DNA from: Actinomycetota bacterium
GTDB lineage: Bacteria > Actinomycetota > Acidimicrobiia > Acidimicrobiales > JAJPHE01
Reading direction: 5' to 3'
DNA: 64,000 bases
Assembly (NCBI GenBank): GCA_021325435.1
Contig: JAJPHE010000087.1
Location: 1-64,000 of the forward strand
In this document: positions 118 to 11,548 of the stretch, in pieces
Layout of the letters: the number at the start of each line of letters is the position of its first letter
Numbering within the stretch: the stretch's first letter is position 1
Translations under genes and position numbers: made by a program
Notes under the pieces: generated by a model
Database searches by the model: none
The model's input: the letters and a program-made list of their open reading frames with translations, nothing else
What the model was told of the DNA's origin: nothing

Positions 118-3039
118 TCAGGCCGAGGGCGTGGTGGTGCTGGTCGTGGTGGTCGACCCGCCAGACCCCGAGGAGGAGCCCCCGCCGCTGGCCTGGCTGA
201 TCAGCTGTCCCATCCTGTTGACGTCGTTCTGGTAGGCGCCCAGGTCCCCCTTCTGGAGGTCGGCCTGGGCGGCCTGGTAGGCGGCGGCGGCCTGGGACAG
301 CAGGGCGCTGACAGCCGGCGAGACGCCCGGGCCGGTCGGGGTGGGGGGCGGCGCCTGGCCGGGCTTCTGCTCGAGGGTCGGCGGGGCCGACCCGAAGATG
401 TCGGCCAGCGCCTTCTGGAGGGTGTCCTCCATGACCGCCTGCTGGCCGGAGACCACGATCACCTTCTTGAGCTCGGGGAGCGGGTTGCGGTCGGACTGGA
501 TGTAGAGCGGGCGTACGTAGATCAGCGACTTCTGGATCGGGATGACCAGCACGTTGCCCAACTGGACCTCGGAGCCTTGCTGGTTGAGCAGGCTGATCTG
601 CGAGGTGATGGTGGGGTCAGCGGCGATGCGGGCGTCCACCAGCGAGGGCCCGTCGATCAGCTGGCCCGGGGGCATCTGGAACACCTGGAGCTGGCCGTAG
701 TCGCTGGGATCGCTCTTGGCCACCATGAAGGCAGACAGGTTCTGCTGCTTGTCCCCCTGCGAGCGCGGCACGTAGGCCTGGAGGATCAGGAAGCTCTCGT
801 TCTGGGACCCGGGCAGGCGCATCAGCAGGTACTGGGGGTCCATCCGCTTCTGACTGATCGACACCACGAAGCCCTGGGCGTTGGTGGTCTGGGTGCCGGT
901 GAGGGCGGCCGACGGCGACCCCTCCCCCGCGCTCTGGGAGACGTTCCAGGCGTTGGCCGCGTTGTAGAAGTCGTTGACCTTGCGGATGTGGTAGCGGCCG
1001 TACATGGTCGTCTGGATCCGGAACAGGTCCTCCGGGTAGCGCAGGTGCTGGCGGAGGGCCAGCGGCATGGTCGAGCCCTGGGTGAACAGCTTGGGGAACG
1101 CCTTCTCGTACGACTTCACGATGGGGTCGGACGGGTCCATCACGTAGAACTTCATGGAGCCGTCGTAGGCGTCGATGACGACCTTCACCGAATTGCGCAG
1201 GTAGTTGAAGCTGCCTCCGAGCCCGCTGGTCTGGGGGAGGCTGGACGTGTCCGCCAGCTGCGCGTACGGGTAGTGGTCGGTCGTCGTGTAGGCGTCCTGG
1301 ATCCACACGATGCGGCCGTTCACGATCGCGGAGTACGGATCGGCGTCCAGCTGCAGGAACGGCGCCGCCTTGTTGACCATCTGCTGGATGTCGCGGATGA
1401 AGATCACCCGTGACGACGAGCTCACCTGACCGGAGATGAGGGGGTTGATGTCCCCGAAGCGCAGGGCGAAGGCGGTCCGGCGGAAGAACGAGCCCAGCTT
1501 CACCCCGCCGGCTCCGGTGTAGGTGCTGGTGACGTTGGTGCCGTCGGGCTGCTGGTAGTCGATCTCCGGCTGGCGGCTGTCGGCGATGACGTAGCCCCCC
1601 ACCCCCAGCCCGAAATAGACCTGGGGCTGGCGGATGGAAGGCACGCCGGGGTCGGACTGGGGCGGGATGTTCTGGATGACGAACACCGGGTTGCCGTCCG
1701 GGTTGGCGGCGTTGGCCTCCGACAGCACCGCCCCGTAGCCGTGGGTGTACTGCAGGTGCAGGTTCACCCACGACTGGGCCGGGAGGTCGTCGGGGTTGAG
1801 CTGGCGCACCGCCATCAGCGTCTGGGTGAGGTTCCCGCCCAGCTGGTAGCGGTCGATGGAGAGGTCGTTGAACTGGTAGTAGGAGCGGATCTCCTGGAGC
1901 TTCTGGTAGGTCTGGGTGGCGAAGGCCGGATCCCACAGCCGCACGTTGCGCACGGTCAGCGAATCGTTCTCGAGAGTGGTGGCGGTCAGGTCGGGACTGA
2001 ACGGGAAGTCGGTCACCTGAACCTTGTCGATGCCGTAGGCGGCCCGGGTGGCCTCCATGTTGCGGGCCAGGTACGGCTTCTCGAGGGCGTTCTCCGCCGG
2101 CTGGACCCGGAACTTCTGCATCACCGCCGGGTAGACCGCCCCCACGATCACCGACACGAACGCCCACAACCCGACGGCGAGGATCGGCAGGACCCAGCCC
2201 TGCAGGCGGATGTTGTAAAGAAACAACACGAAGGCGACCAGCGAGATGAGGATCAGCAACGTCAGGGCCGGCAGCTGAGCCTTGACGTCGGTGTACAGCG
2301 CCCCGTTCACCACCCCTCGGGTGGAGAAGTCGAGGTTGAACCGCTGCAGGTAGTACCCGATCGCCTTGAGCAGGGCGAGGCAGCCCAGCAGCACGGAGAT
2401 GTGCGCCTTCACCTGCGGGGTGACTCGGTTCTGGGGTACCTGAAGGCGGATGCCGCCGTTCAGGTAGTGGGCGACGACCGTGACGATGGTGACGACGACG
2501 ATGGCGACGAAGGCCCAGCTGATGAGGTACGAGTAGAAGGGCAGCTTGAAGACGAAGAACCCGATGTCGCGGTGGAACTGCGGGTCGTTGCTACCGAATG
2601 GGACGGAGTTGCGGAACATCAGCCAGCGGTTCCACTGGCTGGACGCGCCAGTGCCGACCAGCAGGGCGAGGATGAGGGCGGCGATGGCCCGGACTTTGCC
2701 GGCGTGAGGGCCGACGGCGTCGCGGTAGCGCTGGACGAACTCGTCCTCGGGTCCGGCCATCCGATAGGCGGGGGCCAGCCGGTCGGCGATGCTGAGGCTC
2801 AGCCAGACGGCCACGAAGAAGATGGCGGTGAACACCACGGCCAGCTCGATCTTGGTGACCACCACCCCCTTCCACACCGAGGTGAACCCGACCGAGCCGA
2901 ACCACAGGTAGTCGGTGTAGAAGCCGGCGATCCCCCGTAGCGAGAAGATGACGATGATCAGCACCGCCAGCAGCGCCAGCAGTCCGATGCGGGTGCGCGA
3001 GGGCCTTCTCCGGCGGGGCCGGTCGCTGGTGGATCGCAT
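118..3039 (-). CDS. UPF0182 family integral membrane protein
   Basis: This 973-aa protein has about seven hydrophobic helices in its first ~330 residues (for example a GLLALLAVLIIVIFSL stretch). A long, mostly hydrophilic C-terminal part follows, probably outside the membrane. The tail is proline-rich and then Ser/Gly/Thr-rich low complexity. Length and architecture match the UPF0182 (COG1615) family, which is largely actinobacterial and has no established biochemical role. The ATG start sits 13 bases after the stop of the upstream DivIVA gene, so the two are probably cotranscribed. Family assignment is strong; function is unknown. Confidence 0.9.
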   Translation of the reverse strand: MRSTSDRPRRRRPSRTRIGLLALLAVLIIVIFSLRGIAGFYTDYLWFGSVGFTSVWKGVVVTKIELAVVFTAIFFVAVWLSLSIADRLAPAYRMAGPEDEFVQRYRDAVGPHAGKVRAIAALILALLVGTGASSQWNRWLMFRNSVPFGSNDPQFHRDIGFFVFKLPFYSYLISWAFVAIVVVTIVTVVAHYLNGGIRLQVPQNRVTPQVKAHISVLLGCLALLKAIGYYLQRFNLDFSTRGVVNGALYTDVKAQLPALTLLILISLVAFVLFLYNIRLQGWVLPILAVGLWAFVSVIVGAVYPAVMQKFRVQPAENALEKPYLARNMEATRAAYGIDKVQVTDFPFSPDLTATTLENDSLTVRNVRLWDPAFATQTYQKLQEIRSYYQFNDLSIDRYQLGGNLTQTLMAVRQLNPDDLPAQSWVNLHLQYTHGYGAVLSEANAANPDGNPVFVIQNIPPQSDPGVPSIRQPQVYFGLGVGGYVIADSRQPEIDYQQPDGTNVTSTYTGAGGVKLGSFFRRTAFALRFGDINPLISGQVSSSSRVIFIRDIQQMVNKAAPFLQLDADPYSAIVNGRIVWIQDAYTTTDHYPYAQLADTSSLPQTSGLGGSFNYLRNSVKVVIDAYDGSMKFYVMDPSDPIVKSYEKAFPKLFTQGSTMPLALRQHLRYPEDLFRIQTTMYGRYHIRKVNDFYNAANAWNVSQSAGEGSPSAALTGTQTTNAQGFVVSISQKRMDPQYLLMRLPGSQNESFLILQAYVPRSQGDKQQNLSAFMVAKSDPSDYGQLQVFQMPPGQLIDGPSLVDARIAADPTITSQISLLNQQGSEVQLGNVLVIPIQKSLIYVRPLYIQSDRNPLPELKKVIVVSGQQAVMEDTLQKALADIFGSAPPTLEQKPGQAPPPTPTGPGVSPAVSALLSQAAAAYQAAQADLQKGDLGAYQNDVNRMGQLISQASGGGSSSGSGGSTTTTSTTTPSA

Positions 3040-3052
3040 GTGAGGGGCGAGC

Positions 3053-5413
3053 CTAGGTGGTTAGCGGCGCCAGCAGGCAGCGACAGCCGGCGTGAGCCGG
3101 CGGGTGGGCCTGCCCGGTCGGGAAGCCTTCGCCGGCGGGAACGGGGCCGGCCAGGCCGTTGTCGTCGCAGTCGGGGCAGGGGCCGCCGTCGTCGTCGACC
3201 ACCCACCGCACGGTCGTGCCGCTCGGCAGCGAGGCGAGGACGCCCCGGCCGAAGGCGCCCACCGCGTGGTCCATGGCCAGGGACTCCAGCCGCTCACCTT
3301 TCCAGGAGCGGTAGGCGGCTCCTATGGCGTCGGCCGTGACGCCCTCGTCGCGCTGCTCCTCCGCCAGGAGGGTCGACAGCCGCTGGCGCAGCGGGCCGAC
3401 CACGGCGCCGGCGAGCTCGCGGGCGGCGTCGGAGACGTCTTTGGGCTCGGCGGGTGAGGCGTCGGCGAAGAGCTCGCCGGCGAACCCGGCCCCGGCCCGG
3501 AAGGCCTCAGTGACCAGGGGCGAGACCGATTCGGCGTAGCGACCGAGGTGCTCGTCCTCCTCGGGTAGGACCGGGCCCGGTCGCCCGCGGGTGCTACTGC
3601 GCAGACGGTCGAGGACGTCGTTCTGGTCGTCCTGGAGGGCCCGCTTCAGCTTGCGCGACAGGCGCTCGTGCAGCGGGGCCAGCAGCTGGTTGCGGCGGTT
3701 GAGGGCCTCGACTTCGGAGGCGTCCTCCTCGTCGGCTGGGGCTGGGGGCTCCTCGAAAGTGGTTTCCTCCTCGGCGGCGACCGTCTCTTCGGCCGGGCCG
3801 GCGCCCGGCTCGGCGACGGTCCCATCCGCGCTGGCTTCGGTTAGGGGAGCCCCGGCCGCATCGGTCTCGCCCTCGGCCGGGGCGTCGGAGGTCGCCAGCA
3901 CCTCTTCGGCCTTGCGCAGAGCGGCCTGGCGCTCGGCTCGGATGCGGGCGAACAGCTCGTCCACCGAAGGGGCAGCCGCCTTGGCCTCCGCCCCATCCTC
4001 GGCCGGCGAGTCAGCCGTCGCCTCGAGCGATCCCTCGGTCCCCTCCTCGAGCAATCCTTCGTCCCCGGCGGCCGGCTCCGCCTGAGCGGGTTCGCTCACC
4101 TCAGGCTCGGCCGGGCGGATGATGCGGACACCCTCCTCGACGGCGGGGTGCTCACCGGACGAGGCGCCGGGGTGGCGGCGACCACCCTCGGGCCGACCCC
4201 AGCGGAGGATGCGCAGGGAGGAGCCACGACGCTCCTCGCTGACCGGCCCCTCAGGGTCCGACGGGGGCGTCTCAGCCGGCGGCGGCACCAGCGACGGCCC
4301 CCGTCCGACCGGTGCTGGGGGCCGGGCGATGCGGCCCGGCCCGGTTGGCGGGCGCGACTGGGTCGCCGCCCCTCCTCCGAGCACGGTGATCTTGGGCGGC
4401 GCCGGCCGGGCGGGCTCCGCCGGGGTCTGGGCGGGCACCTCGGGCTCGGGCACCTCGGGCCCGGGCGCAGCTGGTTCGGCGTTGGGGGAGGGCGCCGGCG
4501 CAGAGGTCAGCAGCGGAGGCGCGGTCGCCGCAGGGGTGTCGACCGGGGCGGGCTCCTCGGTAGCAGACGGCGGAGCCTCGGGGATGGGAGGCGGTGCCGG
4601 CGCCGGGCCGGGAGCATCGGCGAGGGAGCTGAGCTCGGGCGGTATCGACTCCGGCTCCTCGAGGGCCCGCCGGAAGGCGGCGTCGGCCTCGGCCTTGGCT
4701 TCGGCCTCGACCCGGACCAGGGCGGCCTCGGCCTCCTCGATCATGCGGCGGACCCCGCTCACCGCCGTGAGCAGGCTCTCGCGGCCAGCGCCGAGCTGTT
4801 CGACCTGGGCGTGCATGACCCGCCGGCGGCGCATCAGCTCGCCGAGCAGCTTGGCCCGCAGCTCCCCGGCCTCCTGGCTGATGGCCTCGGCCTGGGTCCG
4901 GGTGGAGCTCATCAGATCGTCCGCCTCGCGGCGGGCGGCGGCGATGACGGCCCGGGCCTCGACCGTGGCCGCCTGGCGGATCTGGGAGGCGGCCTCCTCG
5001 GCCGCGGCCGTGCGTTCGTCGAGGACAGTCTCGGCCGCCCCGCGGATCCGCGCCGCCTCGTCGTGGGCGTCGCGCAGCACCTTGGCCACGTTCTCCTCCG
5101 CCTTGCGGCGGATGTCGGCGGCGGCGTCGTGGGCGGTGTGGAGCAGGCGGGCCGCCTCCTGGCCCAGGGCCTCGGTGAGGGTCTCTTCGTCCAGCTTGGG
5201 GAAGGCCGCCCGGTCGCGGGCCTCGCGGATCTGACGGAGCAGCTCCTCCTCGCGCCGGGCGAAGGACCGGATCTCCTGGGCCACCTGGTTGAGGAAAGCG
5301 CGCACCTCGGCCTGGTCGTAGCCCCGGAAGGCGGACGCGAACGTCCGCCTTGTGATCTCCTCGGCGGCCACCGATGCGGCCGACGCCAGCGGATGCACGC
5401 GGTCGTCCGGCAT
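3053..5413 (-). CDS. DivIVA-domain protein with phage gpF-like Cys/His C-terminus
   Basis: The protein is 786 aa. Residues ~20-60 (FASAFRGYDQAEVRAFLNQV) are a DivIVA-type membrane-curvature/polarity domain. An Ala/Glu/Arg-rich coiled coil follows to ~240, then ~300 residues of acidic Pro/Ala-rich, probably disordered linker. A helical C-terminal region ends in a Cys/His cluster (CPDC near 746-749, HPPAH, CRC at 777-779). That cluster resembles the end of Mu gpF/SPP1 gp7 head-morphogenesis-type domains, which is a family recollection rather than a search result. DivIVA proteins normally scaffold polar growth or division proteins. Neighbours are UPF0182 (13 bases downstream) and a sensor kinase (38 bases upstream). 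The role of the tail is unknown. Confidence 0.8.
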   Translation of the reverse strand: MPDDRVHPLASAASVAAEEITRRTFASAFRGYDQAEVRAFLNQVAQEIRSFARREEELLRQIREARDRAAFPKLDEETLTEALGQEAARLLHTAHDAAADIRRKAEENVAKVLRDAHDEAARIRGAAETVLDERTAAAEEAASQIRQAATVEARAVIAAARREADDLMSSTRTQAEAISQEAGELRAKLLGELMRRRRVMHAQVEQLGAGRESLLTAVSGVRRMIEEAEAALVRVEAEAKAEADAAFRRALEEPESIPPELSSLADAPGPAPAPPPIPEAPPSATEEPAPVDTPAATAPPLLTSAPAPSPNAEPAAPGPEVPEPEVPAQTPAEPARPAPPKITVLGGGAATQSRPPTGPGRIARPPAPVGRGPSLVPPPAETPPSDPEGPVSEERRGSSLRILRWGRPEGGRRHPGASSGEHPAVEEGVRIIRPAEPEVSEPAQAEPAAGDEGLLEEGTEGSLEATADSPAEDGAEAKAAAPSVDELFARIRAERQAALRKAEEVLATSDAPAEGETDAAGAPLTEASADGTVAEPGAGPAEETVAAEEETTFEEPPAPADEEDASEVEALNRRNQLLAPLHERLSRKLKRALQDDQNDVLDRLRSSTRGRPGPVLPEEDEHLGRYAESVSPLVTEAFRAGAGFAGELFADASPAEPKDVSDAARELAGAVVGPLRQRLSTLLAEEQRDEGVTADAIGAAYRSWKGERLESLAMDHAVGAFGRGVLASLPSGTTVRWVVDDDGGPCPDCDDNGLAGPVPAGEGFPTGQAHPPAHAGCRCLLAPLTT

Positions 5414-5451: not shown

Positions 5452-8064
5452 TCATCCTCCACGACCTGCGGCTCGGCGGCCCTCCCCCGGAGCGGCGGGC
5501 AGGACGAGGGCGACGGCGGACCCCTTGCCGACGACCGAGGTGCACTCGACCCGACCCCCGTGTCCCTCGGCCACCCGCATGACGAGGGGCAGCCCGAGGC
5601 CGAGTCCCCCGAAGCGGCGGGTGTCGGAGCTGTCACCTTGAACGAACTCGGCGAAGGCGGCCCTCTGCTCCTCCTCCGACATCCCCTTCCCCTCGTCGCG
5701 TACGGTCAGGCGGACGGTGGAGTCGTCGCCGGCGGCGGCCTCGAGGACGACCTTGCCGCCCTCGGGCGAGAACTTGACCGCATTGTCGATCAGCTCGTCG
5801 AGGGCGAGCCCGACCCAGCGGCGATCGCCGAGGACGGGTGGCGCGCCGCGGGGCGCCTTGCGCACCAGCGTGTGGGGTGGCGTCACCTTGGCCGCCCACC
5901 GGTCCATCGCCTCGTCGAGGATCACCCGGGCCGGCATGGGCTGGCGGTCGACCTCCAGCCGGTTGCCGCCGGATGAGGCGAAGAACTCGAGCATTTCGAC
6001 GGTGCGCATGAGCCGGCGCGACTGGTCGAGGATCTCGGCCTGCCAGAGGCGGGCCCGGGCCGGGTCGACGTCGCGGCGGCTGAGGATCTCGGTGAAGCCG
6101 ACGATGGCGGTGAGGGGTGTGCGCAGCTCGTGGCCGATACGCGAGAGGAACTCGGTCTTCATCCGCTCGAGCTCGAGCTCGGGCCGCAGGTCGCGCACGA
6201 GCAGCACGGCGCCTCCGGCCGTGCCGTCCGGCCCGGTGAGGGGGGCGGCCGACACCGCCACCGGAACGGGGGCGCCGTCGCTGGCGATCACCGTTCCGGC
6301 CCCGGTGAAAGGCAGACGGTCGCGCTCGGCCACGGCGGCGGCCACGGTGCGGCCATCCTCCAGCCGGGCGGCGAGCACCGTGTCAAGCGGGCGTCCGAGC
6401 GCCTTGGCCTGGGTGGCGCCGGACAGCAGCTCGGCGGCCCGGTTGAAGTCGGTGATCCGCCCGTCGGCGTCCACCGCCACCAGCGCCTCGGCCATGCCCC
6501 CCACGACCGACTGCAGCCGGCCACGGAGGCGGGCCTCCTCGGCGGCGGCCAGGCGGAGGGCGCCCTCCTTCTCCTCGATCGACTCGGCCATGGAGTCGAA
6601 GGCTTGGGCCAGGGAGCCGATCTCGTCCGGGGAGCTGATGCCGGTGCGGACCCTCGTCTCGCCGCCGCTGATGCGGCGGGCGGCGGCGGTGAGGCTCTCG
6701 AGGCCCCTGCTGATCCGGTCGCTGGCCAGCACGGAAAGGAGGAAGGCGAGGACGGAGCCGCCGAGGGCGATCAGGAACAGGGTGCGGAACAGAGAGTTGC
6801 GTGAGTTGTCGAACAGGGTGGTGGGCGACTCGGCCACCAGGGCCATGACGCCGGTGCCGCCGGCTCCGGCCACTGGTCGCACCGACACGAACTTGGCGCC
6901 GACGGTCTCGGCACCGGCACCCGGGGCACCGCCGCCGAGCGCGACGGCGGCCAGGCGGGCGATCGGCGCCGAGATGGAGCCGACCGGCGGGTAGGAGCTG
7001 AGCACCCGGTGCCCGTCAGTAAGGACCAGGGTGAGGGTCGGGTCGTCGCTCGCCTGGTTGCGCAGATAGGCGTGGTCGATCGCGGTGACGGCGACGGCCA
7101 CGCCGATCGGCGACAGCGAGCCGGCGGCGGTCTGCACCTCGGCCGGGTAGGCCCCCACTTCGACCGGCAGGCCGGCCACCACTCCCGCGGTGCCCTGGCC
7201 GTTGGCCGTCTGCAACGCCTTCGAGACGAGGACGGACCGGCCCAGGGCGGCGGCCACCCCGTTGCCCAGGGCGGCGTCGAAGCCCGGCGAGGTGGCCAGC
7301 ACGGCGCCGTCGGTTCCGACGAAGAGCAGGTGGACGTCGGAGAAGAACTGGCTGGACAACTGGCCGAGCCAGGCGCTGGCGGCGTCGGCCGTAGGAGGGC
7401 TGGGGTTGAAGGCGGCCTCGGCGGAGGCAGCGGCCACCTTGGCGTCGCGCAGGTCGGGCTGCCACGCGTCGCGAAGCGTCGTCGCCTCCACTGCGGCGCG
7501 CGAGTCGACCCGGCGCAGGGCGTCGTCGCGCACGGTCGTGGACAGCACCGTCGACAGGGCGGCGGACAGCACCACCACGATGAGCAGCAGCGTGCCCGCG
7601 GCGGTGGCGGCCAGCCGGGCCCCGATCATCCGGCGGCTGGCGTTGATGACGGCGCCACCGACGCCGATCGCCCCGGCGACGAGCAGAGACTCGGTGGCCA
7701 AGACGGAGTGGGTCGCCGCCACGCCGGCCGAGGCGGCGACGAGGGCCCCGCCGGCCCGCAGCAGCCCGGCCGGTATCCGTCCGCCGGCCCAGCCGAAGGC
7801 GGCCAGCGGGGCGAGGGCCAGGGCGAGGGCTCCGCCGGCCCGCAGGCCGATGACAGTGGGGGCGGCGACCTGGCCGGGCATCAGGGCGCCGTGCACGAAC
7901 GCCGAGGCGCCGAGGGCCGACAGCCCGAGCCCGAGCCAGAACGCCGAGGCCGGGCGGGTGGCCACCAGTTCGATGCGGAGGGCCAGCACCGCTAGTCCGG
8001 CCAGGGCGACCAGGAAGGTGACGATCTCGGCGGCGAACTGGAACTGGGCGGCCGAAGCTCCCAT
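5452..8064 (-). CDS. membrane sensor histidine kinase (HAMP-PAS-HisKA-HATPase)
   Basis: This is an 870-aa kinase. Residues 1-175 hold several hydrophobic helices, ~180-420 form a predicted extracytoplasmic sensor region, and a further helix lies at ~425-447. Next come HAMP (~450-500), PAS (~515-625), and a HisKA dimerisation domain with phospho-acceptor His645 in GHELRTPL. The ATPase domain follows, with N-box LIDNAVKFSPEGG (~758-770), G1 DEGKGMS and G2 GGLGLGLPL. All catalytic boxes look intact. No response-regulator gene is adjacent, so it is an orphan kinase here. It is 38 bases upstream of the DivIVA gene, suggesting cotranscription; the signal is unknown. Confidence 0.93.
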   Translation of the reverse strand: MGASAAQFQFAAEIVTFLVALAGLAVLALRIELVATRPASAFWLGLGLSALGASAFVHGALMPGQVAAPTVIGLRAGGALALALAPLAAFGWAGGRIPAGLLRAGGALVAASAGVAATHSVLATESLLVAGAIGVGGAVINASRRMIGARLAATAAGTLLLIVVVLSAALSTVLSTTVRDDALRRVDSRAAVEATTLRDAWQPDLRDAKVAAASAEAAFNPSPPTADAASAWLGQLSSQFFSDVHLLFVGTDGAVLATSPGFDAALGNGVAAALGRSVLVSKALQTANGQGTAGVVAGLPVEVGAYPAEVQTAAGSLSPIGVAVAVTAIDHAYLRNQASDDPTLTLVLTDGHRVLSSYPPVGSISAPIARLAAVALGGGAPGAGAETVGAKFVSVRPVAGAGGTGVMALVAESPTTLFDNSRNSLFRTLFLIALGGSVLAFLLSVLASDRISRGLESLTAAARRISGGETRVRTGISSPDEIGSLAQAFDSMAESIEEKEGALRLAAAEEARLRGRLQSVVGGMAEALVAVDADGRITDFNRAAELLSGATQAKALGRPLDTVLAARLEDGRTVAAAVAERDRLPFTGAGTVIASDGAPVPVAVSAAPLTGPDGTAGGAVLLVRDLRPELELERMKTEFLSRIGHELRTPLTAIVGFTEILSRRDVDPARARLWQAEILDQSRRLMRTVEMLEFFASSGGNRLEVDRQPMPARVILDEAMDRWAAKVTPPHTLVRKAPRGAPPVLGDRRWVGLALDELIDNAVKFSPEGGKVVLEAAAGDDSTVRLTVRDEGKGMSEEEQRAAFAEFVQGDSSDTRRFGGLGLGLPLVMRVAEGHGGRVECTSVVGKGSAVALVLPAAPGEGRRAAGRGG

Positions 8065-8111: not shown

Positions 8112-9221
8112 CTACTGCCCGGCTGGTGGCGGGGGCGGAACGCCGGAAACGTCCCCACCGTTGGCCGCGATGGCCGCCAGGGCCTGGTCGAGGGTGGAGA
8201 CCTTCACCACCTTCAGGTGGGGTCCGGCGTGGGAGACGGCGTCGCGGTACTCGCCGGGCGGCACGAGGAACAGCACGGCGCCGGCGTTGGAGACCGACAC
8301 CGTCTTTTCGGCCACTCCCCCCACGTCGCCGACATTGCCGTCGGGGTCGATGGTGCCGGTGGCGGCGATGCGCTGGCCGCCGGTCAGCTTGCCGTTGACC
8401 AGGACGTCGATGATGCCGAGGGTGAAGGCCAGTCCGGCCGACGGCCCTCCGATGTCACCCGAGTTGATGGACACCTTGAACGGCAGGTCGAAGTGCTCGC
8501 CCCGGGTGCCGAGGGCGACGCCGAGGAAGGCGCGGTTCGGGTTGTCGGGTCGGCGGGTGAGGGTGACGGCGACGTTCTGGGTCCGGCCCTGGCGGTCGAG
8601 GGTGAGGGCGATGTTCTGGCCCGGGTGGTCGGCGACCAGGGCGGTGGTGACGTCGGTGTCGAGTTGCACCGGGCGGCCGTCGATGGCGGTGATGGTGTCG
8701 CCGACGTGCACGACCGGGGCCGCCGGGGTCTTGGGCACGACCTCCTCGACGAGGGCCCCGGTGCCGTGCTCAGGGACGCGGTAGCCGAGGCGGCGCAAGG
8801 CGGCGACCTGAGCGTCCTGCACCGAACCCTGCATCTCCTCGTTGTTGATCTGCTGTAGCTCCCCTGTCGGCAGGTTTCCGAGGATCGATTCGCGCGAAAC
8901 GATCTGCACGTCGTGGTTAAACCACGCGTAGACGAAGTCGATGGGGCGGGCCTGGCGCAACAGCACGGTGGTGAGCATCACCGCCCCGCTCACCGGGTGG
9001 CGCTGGTTGGCGGGCACCGTGATCATCGGCGCCACCGGGCTGGTCGTGCCCGGGCTGAGCTCGAAGTACGGCAGGTTGACGGTGATGCTCACCAGGTCGA
9101 TGACGACGATGACGGCGGCGATGACGCCGAGGATCCACGTGCGGGCGCGCCGGGGCTCCGGGGCGTCCTCGGCCGGGGGGGCGTCGGCCGGCGGGGCGTC
9201 GAAGGTCGCGATCGGTTCCAT
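8112..9221 (-). CDS. membrane-anchored PDZ/Lon-like (S16) serine protease
   Basis: The 369-aa protein has one N-terminal transmembrane helix (ILGVIAAVIVVIDLVSITV), a PDZ domain in the middle (~150-225) and a C-terminal Lon-type proteolytic domain. The catalytic serine lies in GDIGGPSAGLAF and the lysine of the Ser-Lys dyad is likely in GDVGGVAEKT. This architecture is that of the YlbL-type PDZ-Lon family found in Gram-positive bacteria, which degrade proteins at the outer face of the membrane. The PDZ domain would present the substrate. It lies between the tetR gene (33 bases) and the sensor kinase (47 bases), all on the minus strand. Confidence 0.9.
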   Translation of the reverse strand: MEPIATFDAPPADAPPAEDAPEPRRARTWILGVIAAVIVVIDLVSITVNLPYFELSPGTTSPVAPMITVPANQRHPVSGAVMLTTVLLRQARPIDFVYAWFNHDVQIVSRESILGNLPTGELQQINNEEMQGSVQDAQVAALRRLGYRVPEHGTGALVEEVVPKTPAAPVVHVGDTITAIDGRPVQLDTDVTTALVADHPGQNIALTLDRQGRTQNVAVTLTRRPDNPNRAFLGVALGTRGEHFDLPFKVSINSGDIGGPSAGLAFTLGIIDVLVNGKLTGGQRIAATGTIDPDGNVGDVGGVAEKTVSVSNAGAVLFLVPPGEYRDAVSHAGPHLKVVKVSTLDQALAAIAANGGDVSGVPPPPPAGQ

Positions 9222-9953: not shown

Positions 9954-10547
9954 TTGACCGACGAGACCGTAGCCGATGTAGCCCGACGAACACGCTCAGT
10001 GGCCGCCGCCGGCCACCGGGGGGACGAGTCCGTAGCCCGCGCCCACCTCTCCGACCCCGAGCCCGCGGTGCGGGCCGCCGCCCTCGGGGCCCTGGACCGG
10101 ATGGGCCGGCTCACGCCGGCCGACCTCGCCGCGGGGCTGGCCGACCCCGACCCGGCCGTCCGCCTTCGTTCGTGCCAGCTGGCGGCCCGCTACCCCGCGC
10201 CCGACCTGGTGCCCCTGCTGGCCGACGAGCCGCTGGTGGCCGAGACGGCCGCCTGGGCCCTGGGCGAGCGCGGCGAGGCCGGCGCGGTGGCCGCCCTGGC
10301 CGCCATGGCCACCGGGCACGACGATCCGCTGTGCCGCGAGGCGGCCGTGGCCGCCCTGGGGGCTATCGGGGACCCCGCCGGGCTGCCCGCCATCCTGGCC
10401 GCCACTGGCGATCGGCCGGCGGTGCGGCGCCGGGCGGTCATCGCCCTGGCCCCCTTCGAGGGTCCGGAGGTGGACGAGGCCCTGCGCCGGGCCCTGGATG
10501 ACCGCGACTGGCAGGTCCGCCAGGCGGCCGAGGACCTGCTCGACTAG
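9954..10547 (+). CDS. HEAT-repeat (PBS lyase-like) protein
   Basis: The ~197-aa protein consists of consecutive ~30-residue helical repeats of the type DPEPAVRAAALGALDRMG and DRDWQVRQAAEDLLD, typical of PBS-lyase/HEAT repeats used for protein interaction. The ORF track extends it far upstream, but that part is antisense to tetR and has no matching character. I chose TTG at 9954, just beyond the tetR start; GTG at 9999 is an alternative. Neither has a strong ribosome-binding site. Its stop overlaps the convergent mreB stop in the shared tetranucleotide CTAG. Specific function unknown. Confidence 0.7.
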   Translation: MTDETVADVARRTRSVAAAGHRGDESVARAHLSDPEPAVRAAALGALDRMGRLTPADLAAGLADPDPAVRLRSCQLAARYPAPDLVPLLADEPLVAETAAWALGERGEAGAVAALAAMATGHDDPLCREAAVAALGAIGDPAGLPAILAATGDRPAVRRRAVIALAPFEGPEVDEALRRALDDRDWQVRQAAEDLLD

Positions 10548-11548
10548 CGCTCGGCCCCCATGAACATCACCTTCAGGGAGTCGAACGAGTCGAGGCACTT
10601 GCCGGCCCCGAGGACGACGCACTCGAGGGGGGCGTGGACCAGGTTGACGGGCAGGGCGGTCTCCTCCTCCAGTCGGCGGCCGAGGCCCTGCAGCAGACCG
10701 CCGCCGCCGGACAGGTGGATGCCCTGGGTTATGAGGTCCTGGGCCAGCTCGGGCGGGGCCTGGCCCAGGCATTCGACGACCGAGTCGACGATGGCGCCCA
10801 CCTGGTCCTCGATGGCGAAGCGGACCTCCTCGGGGGAGAGGATCACCGTCTTGGGCAGCCCGGTCATCAGGTCGCGGCCGCGCACCTCGGCCTTCACCGC
10901 GTCGTTCACCGGGTAGGCGGATCCGATCGCCATCTTGATCTCCTCGGCCGTGCGCTCGCCGATGGCGATGCCGTACTCGCGCCGCACGTAGGACTGGATG
11001 GAGGCGTCGATGTCGAAGCTGCCCACCCGGATGGCCTGCAGGGCGACGATGCCGCCGAGGGAGATGACCGCCGTCTCCGTCGTGCCCCCGCCCACGTCGA
11101 CGACCATGTTGCCGAGGGGCTCGTGGATGGGCAGGCCGGCGCCGATGGCGGCGGCCATGGGCTGTTCGATCAGGTAGGCGGCGGCCGCCCCCGCCCGGCG
11201 GGCCGCCTCCTCCACCGCTCGGCGCTCGACCTCGGTGATGGCCGACGGCACGCAGATCAACACCCGGGGCCGGTTGAATCGAGAGACGCCGGCCCGCTCC
11301 AACAAGAGCCGGATCATGCGCTGGGTGATGTCGAAGTCGGTGATCGCGCCTTGGCGCAGGGGGCGGACGGCAACGATGTAGCCGGGGGTGCGGCCGATCA
11401 TGTGCCACGCCTCCTGGCCCATGGCCAGCACGTCCTGGGTGCGCGAGTTCAGGGCGATGACCGTCGGCTCGTTGAGGACGATGCCCCGGCCCCGCGAGTA
11501 GACGAGCGTGTTGGCGGTGCCGAGGTCGATGGCCAGGTCCCTAGCCAG
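10544..11548 (-). CDS. mreB: rod shape-determining protein MreB (actin-like), CTG start
   Basis: This is a bacterial actin homologue that forms membrane-associated filaments guiding cell-wall synthesis. Phosphate-binding motifs AIDLGTANTLVY and VVDVGGGTTETAVISLGG and the C-terminal HLSGGGGLLQGL motif are present. The ORF track starts at a GTG (11431) that would delete the first ATP-binding motif. Reading upstream in frame restores LARDLAIDLGTANT, and the only plausible initiator is CTG at 11548, preceded by GGAGGG with a 9-base spacer. That gives 334 aa, the usual MreB length. The CTG overlaps the end of the small membrane protein gene by 8 bases. No mreC, mreD or rodA is nearby. Confidence 0.85.
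   Translation of the reverse strand: MARDLAIDLGTANTLVYSRGRGIVLNEPTVIALNSRTQDVLAMGQEAWHMIGRTPGYIVAVRPLRQGAITDFDITQRMIRLLLERAGVSRFNRPRVLICVPSAITEVERRAVEEAARRAGAAAAYLIEQPMAAAIGAGLPIHEPLGNMVVDVGGGTTETAVISLGGIVALQAIRVGSFDIDASIQSYVRREYGIAIGERTAEEIKMAIGSAYPVNDAVKAEVRGRDLMTGLPKTVILSPEEVRFAIEDQVGAIVDSVVECLGQAPPELAQDLITQGIHLSGGGGLLQGLGRRLEEETALPVNLVHAPLECVVLGAGKCLDSFDSLKVMFMGAER

Follow-up and report, generated by a model that had tools for sequence, protein, structure and literature searches.

Near the start of the window, by which we mean the whole 64,000-nucleotide stretch of DNA that was analysed, lies a gene on the minus strand (3053..5413, ATG start) that encodes a protein of 786 aa, in which a DivIVA domain is joined to a tail related to phage head proteins of the MuF type. 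A gene for a UPF0182 membrane protein (118..3039; PF03699, 910 bits) is found 13 bp downstream of this fusion gene, and a PAS/HAMP histidine kinase gene (5452..8064) lies 38 bp upstream, followed by the gene for a PDZ-Lon protease-like protein (8112..9221) and, further upstream, by an intact mreB (10544-11548), all of them on the same strand as the fusion gene. Portal or terminase genes were not found beside the fusion gene, whose neighbours are those just named. None of the start codons ATG, GTG and TTG occurs where the N-terminus of MreB is expected, and the protein seems to begin with a CTG (11546-11548), such that plain ORF calling truncates MreB. A literature search on Rv3193c/Rv3194c gave no result.

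The N-terminal part of the fusion protein (residues 17-131; 5021..5365, minus strand, as are all features below) meets the requirements for a DivIVA domain, with 62.2 bits for PF05103 (Pfam; cut-off 28, E 6.4e-17) and 40.8 bits for TIGR03544, which is above the cut-off of 22. Judging from the sequence, it is extended by a coiled coil (residues ~132-250; 4664..5020), and residues 76-250 are conserved across the homologues with 37% mean identity and 93% occupancy. Next comes a Pro/Ala/Glu-rich linker of low complexity and ~320 residues in length (residues ~251-571; 3701..4663). It is poorly conserved (20-23% identity, low occupancy) outside a short element, VDELFARIRAERQAAL (residues 481-510; 3884..3973), which has 36% mean identity and 89% occupancy and may be a separate binding motif. 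A similar stretch, EVIAALFARIRADSE, is retained near the protein end in a lineage in which the whole tail has been lost (L292).

The protein ends in a folded tail of ~215 residues, which we delimit as a MuF-like domain (residues ~562-786; 3056..3730) on the basis of an AlphaFold2 (AF2) model, Foldseek and the profile phrog_2662. It contains a helix-1 motif, LSRKLKRALQDDQNDVLDRLR (residues 585-605; 3599..3661), recognized by its conservation and aligned with a helix of a prophage MuF, and a putative metal site made up of C746, C749, H774, C777 and C779 (3077..3178), which is inferred from residue conservation. The terminus reads C746-PD-C749 ... FPTGQAHPPAH774-AG-C777-R-C779-LL, and 7 residues separate the CRC motif from the end of the protein. 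The preliminary description of this gene, according to which a DivIVA N-terminus is connected to a Cys/His tail by a linker of ~300 residues, thus proved accurate, including its coordinates. The Cys/His residues that it had taken as the module are indeed present, but the module is larger than that, since the ~215 residues include a long helical part, which in some lineages survives alone, without the Cys part.

With respect to the origin of this tail, profile evidence comes from phrog_2662, a phage family annotated as portal protein, which matches the window tail with an E-value of 8.3e-13 and is also matched by 60 of the 64 homologous tails. The match spans positions 460-706 of the 717 profile positions, i.e., the C-terminal MuF part, and the portal core lies outside of it. 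Shuffled tails (n=3) and a reversed tail (n=1) gave no match to a phage head protein, and chance or composition was rejected on these grounds as the source of the phage match. PF04233 is matched by 37 of 64 tails at E<=1, with an E-value of 5.6e-6 for the best member. However, the window tail itself reaches only 12.6-13 bits with this model (curated cut-off 29.6), and the window protein only 12.3 bits with TIGR01641 (cut-off 39.65). Because these cut-offs are not reached, we call the tail MuF-like and not a member of PF04233 or TIGR01641. A search of phage genomes with the tail (tblastn) yielded a single weak match, to the portal of a Brevundimonas phage (E 5e-3), so that direct sequence similarity alone is insufficient to settle the case. 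Furthermore, the prophage portal loci of the same class gave no match to the tail HMM.

The predicted structure supports the kinship. An AF2 model of the tail, built with 69 homologues, has a mean pLDDT of 93.7 and a pTM of 0.90, and shows five helices together with a small subdomain of strands and loops, in which the Cys/His residues are located. Foldseek found 59 matches to this model at E<=0.001 among predicted viral proteins (BFVD). Among the 50 matches listed, those with a name are almost all head-morphogenesis, minor-capsid, capsid maturation protease or portal proteins, and the phage matches listed reach a TM-score on the query of up to 0.81. Against the PDB, there were no matches at E<=0.001; weak matches to ZorA and to ribosomal uS19 were limited to helical stretches and were discarded as chance.

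A phage counterpart was found in another genome of the class, in which a prophage MuF gene lies directly after a portal ORF (L260:774-1850, minus strand). Between its product and the tail profile, hhalign gives an alignment of 209 columns (probability 93.7), which runs along the whole tail, covering the helix-1 motif as well as the W...CRC region, which makes this protein a good partner for structural comparison. Two proteins from virus contigs, one ending in FPSGHDRPPAHPGCRCLL and one in CPDCDDNESNGP...PAHPNCRC, have termini nearly identical to that of the tail and give hhalign probabilities of 97.7 and 97.0, respectively. Each hhalign E-value refers to one pair of profiles or sequences and not to a database. 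Taken in the broad sense, membership in the MuF superfamily is met by profile, fold and the alignment with the prophage MuF, and also by the C-terminal CRC with Cys and His upstream. The similarity to Mu gpF/SPP1 gp7-type domains that had been claimed initially therefore stands, and the outcome that would have refuted it, namely that profile searches place the tail in an unrelated family, did not occur.

One could still argue that the domain in the tail belonged to cells from ancient times and was borrowed by phages later, or that it is an unrelated zinc knuckle that merely resembles MuF, and the failure of the curated MuF models to reach their cut-offs with the fusion protein is in line with this. 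However, it is the entire 215-residue fold and not only the knuckle that matches phage proteins, and one prophage MuF sequence aligns along the length of the tail. Furthermore, MuF is widespread among phages (PMC5576092), whereas the cellular form was seen in a single phylum, the full-profile search not having extended to others. We therefore regard this explanation as unlikely, though it retains a small chance.

The conservation of the protein was determined on an alignment of 64 tails, from the window and 63 related genomes. Both C777 and C779 are present in all 64 tails, H774 is found in 58, and C746 and C749 in 55 each. The segment carrying the Cys residues is the best-conserved stretch of the whole protein (59% mean identity to the window), followed by the DivIVA head and coil (up to 37%) and the helical tail (35%), which together span a range of 35-37%, whereas the linkers show only 20-23%. 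The CxxC, the His and the CRC are thus genuinely conserved and not a chance arrangement, and the possibility that close homologues might lack them, which would have spoken against the initial claim, has not materialized. The knuckle is probably zinc-binding, a prediction that rests only on the conservation of the ligands, as there are no zinc data.

Helix 1 has a conserved feature of its own, in that K590, R591 and R605 are nearly invariant. These basic residues invite the idea that the tail tethers DNA and so anchors the chromosome at the pole, all the more so because the title of Stiege 2003, a reference in PMC5576092, describes SPP1 gp7 as a protein that binds DNA. However, basic and acidic residues alternate in helix 1, and the window tail is net acidic, with 24 K/R against 32 D/E. 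The net charge is likewise negative in 20 of 20 tails checked, ranging from -5 to -21. The acidity of the tail does not favour a gp7-like role in DNA binding, and a DNA tether is in our view improbable.

The search for the same fusion in other Acidimicrobiia, which the preliminary description had suggested, showed that most of the class has it, as do neighbouring lineages of actinobacteria. Among the carriers are the cultured relatives Aquihabitans sp. G128 (L183) and Aciditerrimonas ferrireducens (L140). The tail occurs as a single copy in its own genome and nearly always as one copy per carrying genome. It was found in 77 of 99 near relatives and, class-wide, in 216 of 296 genomes (174 of the 210 good-quality ones), as well as in other families and lineages of the phylum beyond the class. 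Outside the class, fusion and synteny persist, and the ending is altered, e.g., to CPxxxCRxN...FPSGH..PPAHGGCTCT. A custom HMM detected the DivIVA head in 92 of 104 tail-bearing ORFs examined; of the remaining 12, several are short fragments or run off the end of a contig, and one retains the DivIVA coil only. A profile search for related records, for which a 17-row tail alignment was used, returned records whose labels, among the best 80 named ones with the tail, are nearly all Acidimicrobiia or unclassified actinobacteria, and it is from these labels that we infer the class to be Acidimicrobiia. A record labelled Acidobacteria (isolate ATN2; L191) has a typical family member and is probably a mislabelled acidimicrobial bin.

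The fusion has also been lost to different degrees. The Cys part is lost and the helical part kept in L236, L237, L238, L291 and L301, which means that the helical part can be retained without the Cys part; one lineage (L292) no longer has any of the tail; and the whole gene is absent in L293, L299 and L289, where PDZ-Lon stands directly before UPF0182, with a gap of ~18 bp between the two in L293 and L299. The gene is thus widely kept yet not indispensable, and these losses show that the function of the fusion is dispensable in places. The graded losses in L293, L299, L289, L292, L291 and L301 can be used as a natural deletion series.

The genomic surroundings are equally stable. The order PDZ-Lon, DivIVA-MuF, UPF0182 is common to the lineages: almost every locus long enough to show it has UPF0182 after the fusion gene, and in most loci PDZ-Lon lies before it, while the histidine kinase is present in only part of the loci. 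Distances between tails correlate with distances between the UPF0182 proteins (Mantel r 0.547, 51 genomes), and none of 2000 permutations gave a value as high. That the divergence of the tail tracks UPF0182 fits with vertical descent, and together with the class-wide synteny it led us to reject a recent prophage insertion.

The same observations bear on the possibility that the fusion is an anti-phage device, in which the tail acts as a decoy on the scaffold that binds new portal rings and so halts head assembly. Tight binding of the portal by MuF/gp7 (PMC6316719) would suit such a device, and bacteria do defend themselves by interfering with the assembly of virions (PMC10884400). However, defence genes are patchy, whereas this gene is a single copy that descends vertically in a fixed housekeeping synteny across the class, with a tail whose divergence follows that of the neighbouring gene, and we consider a portal decoy very unlikely. 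The idea that the Cys/His end is an enzymatic or toxin-like remnant is scarcely tenable, since, even though the annotation of some phage proteins with this fold is capsid maturation protease and toxins are part of some MuF proteins (PMC5576092), the fusion protein had zero matches to protease or toxin families and ends with the MuF domain, whereas MuF toxins sit C-terminal to it (PMC5576092).

The DivIVA family is established as a membrane-curvature scaffold at the cell pole or septum. The fusion protein is the second DivIVA of its genome, the other one being short and without the tail. This other gene (L287:498-1070, minus strand; G000:C13; 190 aa from ATG) lies beside a glycosyltransferase-like gene, and no ftsZ cluster was evident near it within the 6 kb read. 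We consider it reasonably likely, if by no means settled, that the fusion protein is a second polar or septal scaffold of the DivIVA type, whose C-terminal phage MuF (gp7-like) module was captured long ago and has been kept vertically since. That the transfer went from phage to host is inferred without a rooted tree, but we hold it with considerable confidence, because MuF is widespread in phages and the cellular fusion is confined to one phylum as far as searched. In addition, the cellular fusion is nearly always in the same genomic place. Because the fusion is inherited across most of the class, the phage part now seems to belong permanently to a protein that organises the bacterial cell.

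Building on the architecture, the kinship of the tail with phage MuF, the conservation and the synteny, all of which are observed, a mechanism for the fusion protein overall can be proposed with moderate confidence. The DivIVA head and coil would oligomerise and attach to the curved polar or septal membrane, and the long flexible linker would allow the end domain to reach outward. The five-helix MuF domain, closed by the small Cys/His knuckle, may then serve as a protein-docking head. The best-studied MuF protein, SPP1 gp7, is a strong portal binder (PMC6316719, PMC5576092), of which few copies are carried and without which assembly proceeds, although virions lacking gp7 are only ~25% infectious (PMC6316719). 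In the fusion, such portal binding would have been replaced by binding of a host partner, perhaps the envelope or shape machinery encoded alongside, i.e., the UPF0182 or the PDZ-Lon protein. A polar or septal localisation is likely given the DivIVA domain, from which it is inferred in the absence of a localisation experiment. For a docking rather than an enzymatic role of the tail, which is likewise an inference, the balance is even, and that the docking partner is among the neighbouring genes is a doubtful guess from synteny only. More tentatively still than the docking role itself, one may picture a phage head module that was domesticated before the radiation of the Acidimicrobiia and became the part of a polarity scaffold that binds cargo. 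The class would thereby have gained an organising system built on DivIVA, with UPF0182 and PDZ-Lon as its partners, that most other Actinomycetota lack.

A literature search found no papers that link DivIVA with MuF or head-morphogenesis domains, most subscription journals not being covered. What appears to be new is the fusion, together with its age and spread; both of its halves were already known. The phage parts that cells are known to have adopted are for the most part machines derived from tails or capsids, which serve as weapons or compartments. A head-assembly adaptor in a cell-polarity protein, retained by most of a class, would represent reuse of another kind. The fusion also offers a handle on the function of the MuF domain and on the roles of the UPF0182 and PDZ-Lon neighbours, which are old unknowns.

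Compared with DivIVA/Wag31 (PF05103, TIGR03544), the fusion protein shares the N-terminal DivIVA domain and the coiled coil, above the curated cut-offs, but adds the ~320-residue linker and the 215-residue folded C-terminal domain, and stands beside a short tail-less DivIVA in the same genome. With the MuF superfamily (Mu gpF, SPP1 gp7, Phage_Mu_F PF04233, TIGR01641) it has in common the fold, the helical region and the W...CxxC...F-P...H-x2-CRC ending; however, here the domain is carried by a scaffold of the cell and encoded among cellular genes, with no portal or terminase gene adjacent. The portals of phrog_2662 carry a C-terminal MuF extension to which the tail aligns, but the fusion has no portal core and has the DivIVA part in its stead. 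Finally, the MuF polymorphic toxins of temperate phages (PMC5576092) likewise use the MuF domain as a fusion module, yet in these the MuF domain is N-terminal and followed by a toxin, whereas in the fusion protein it is terminal and without one.
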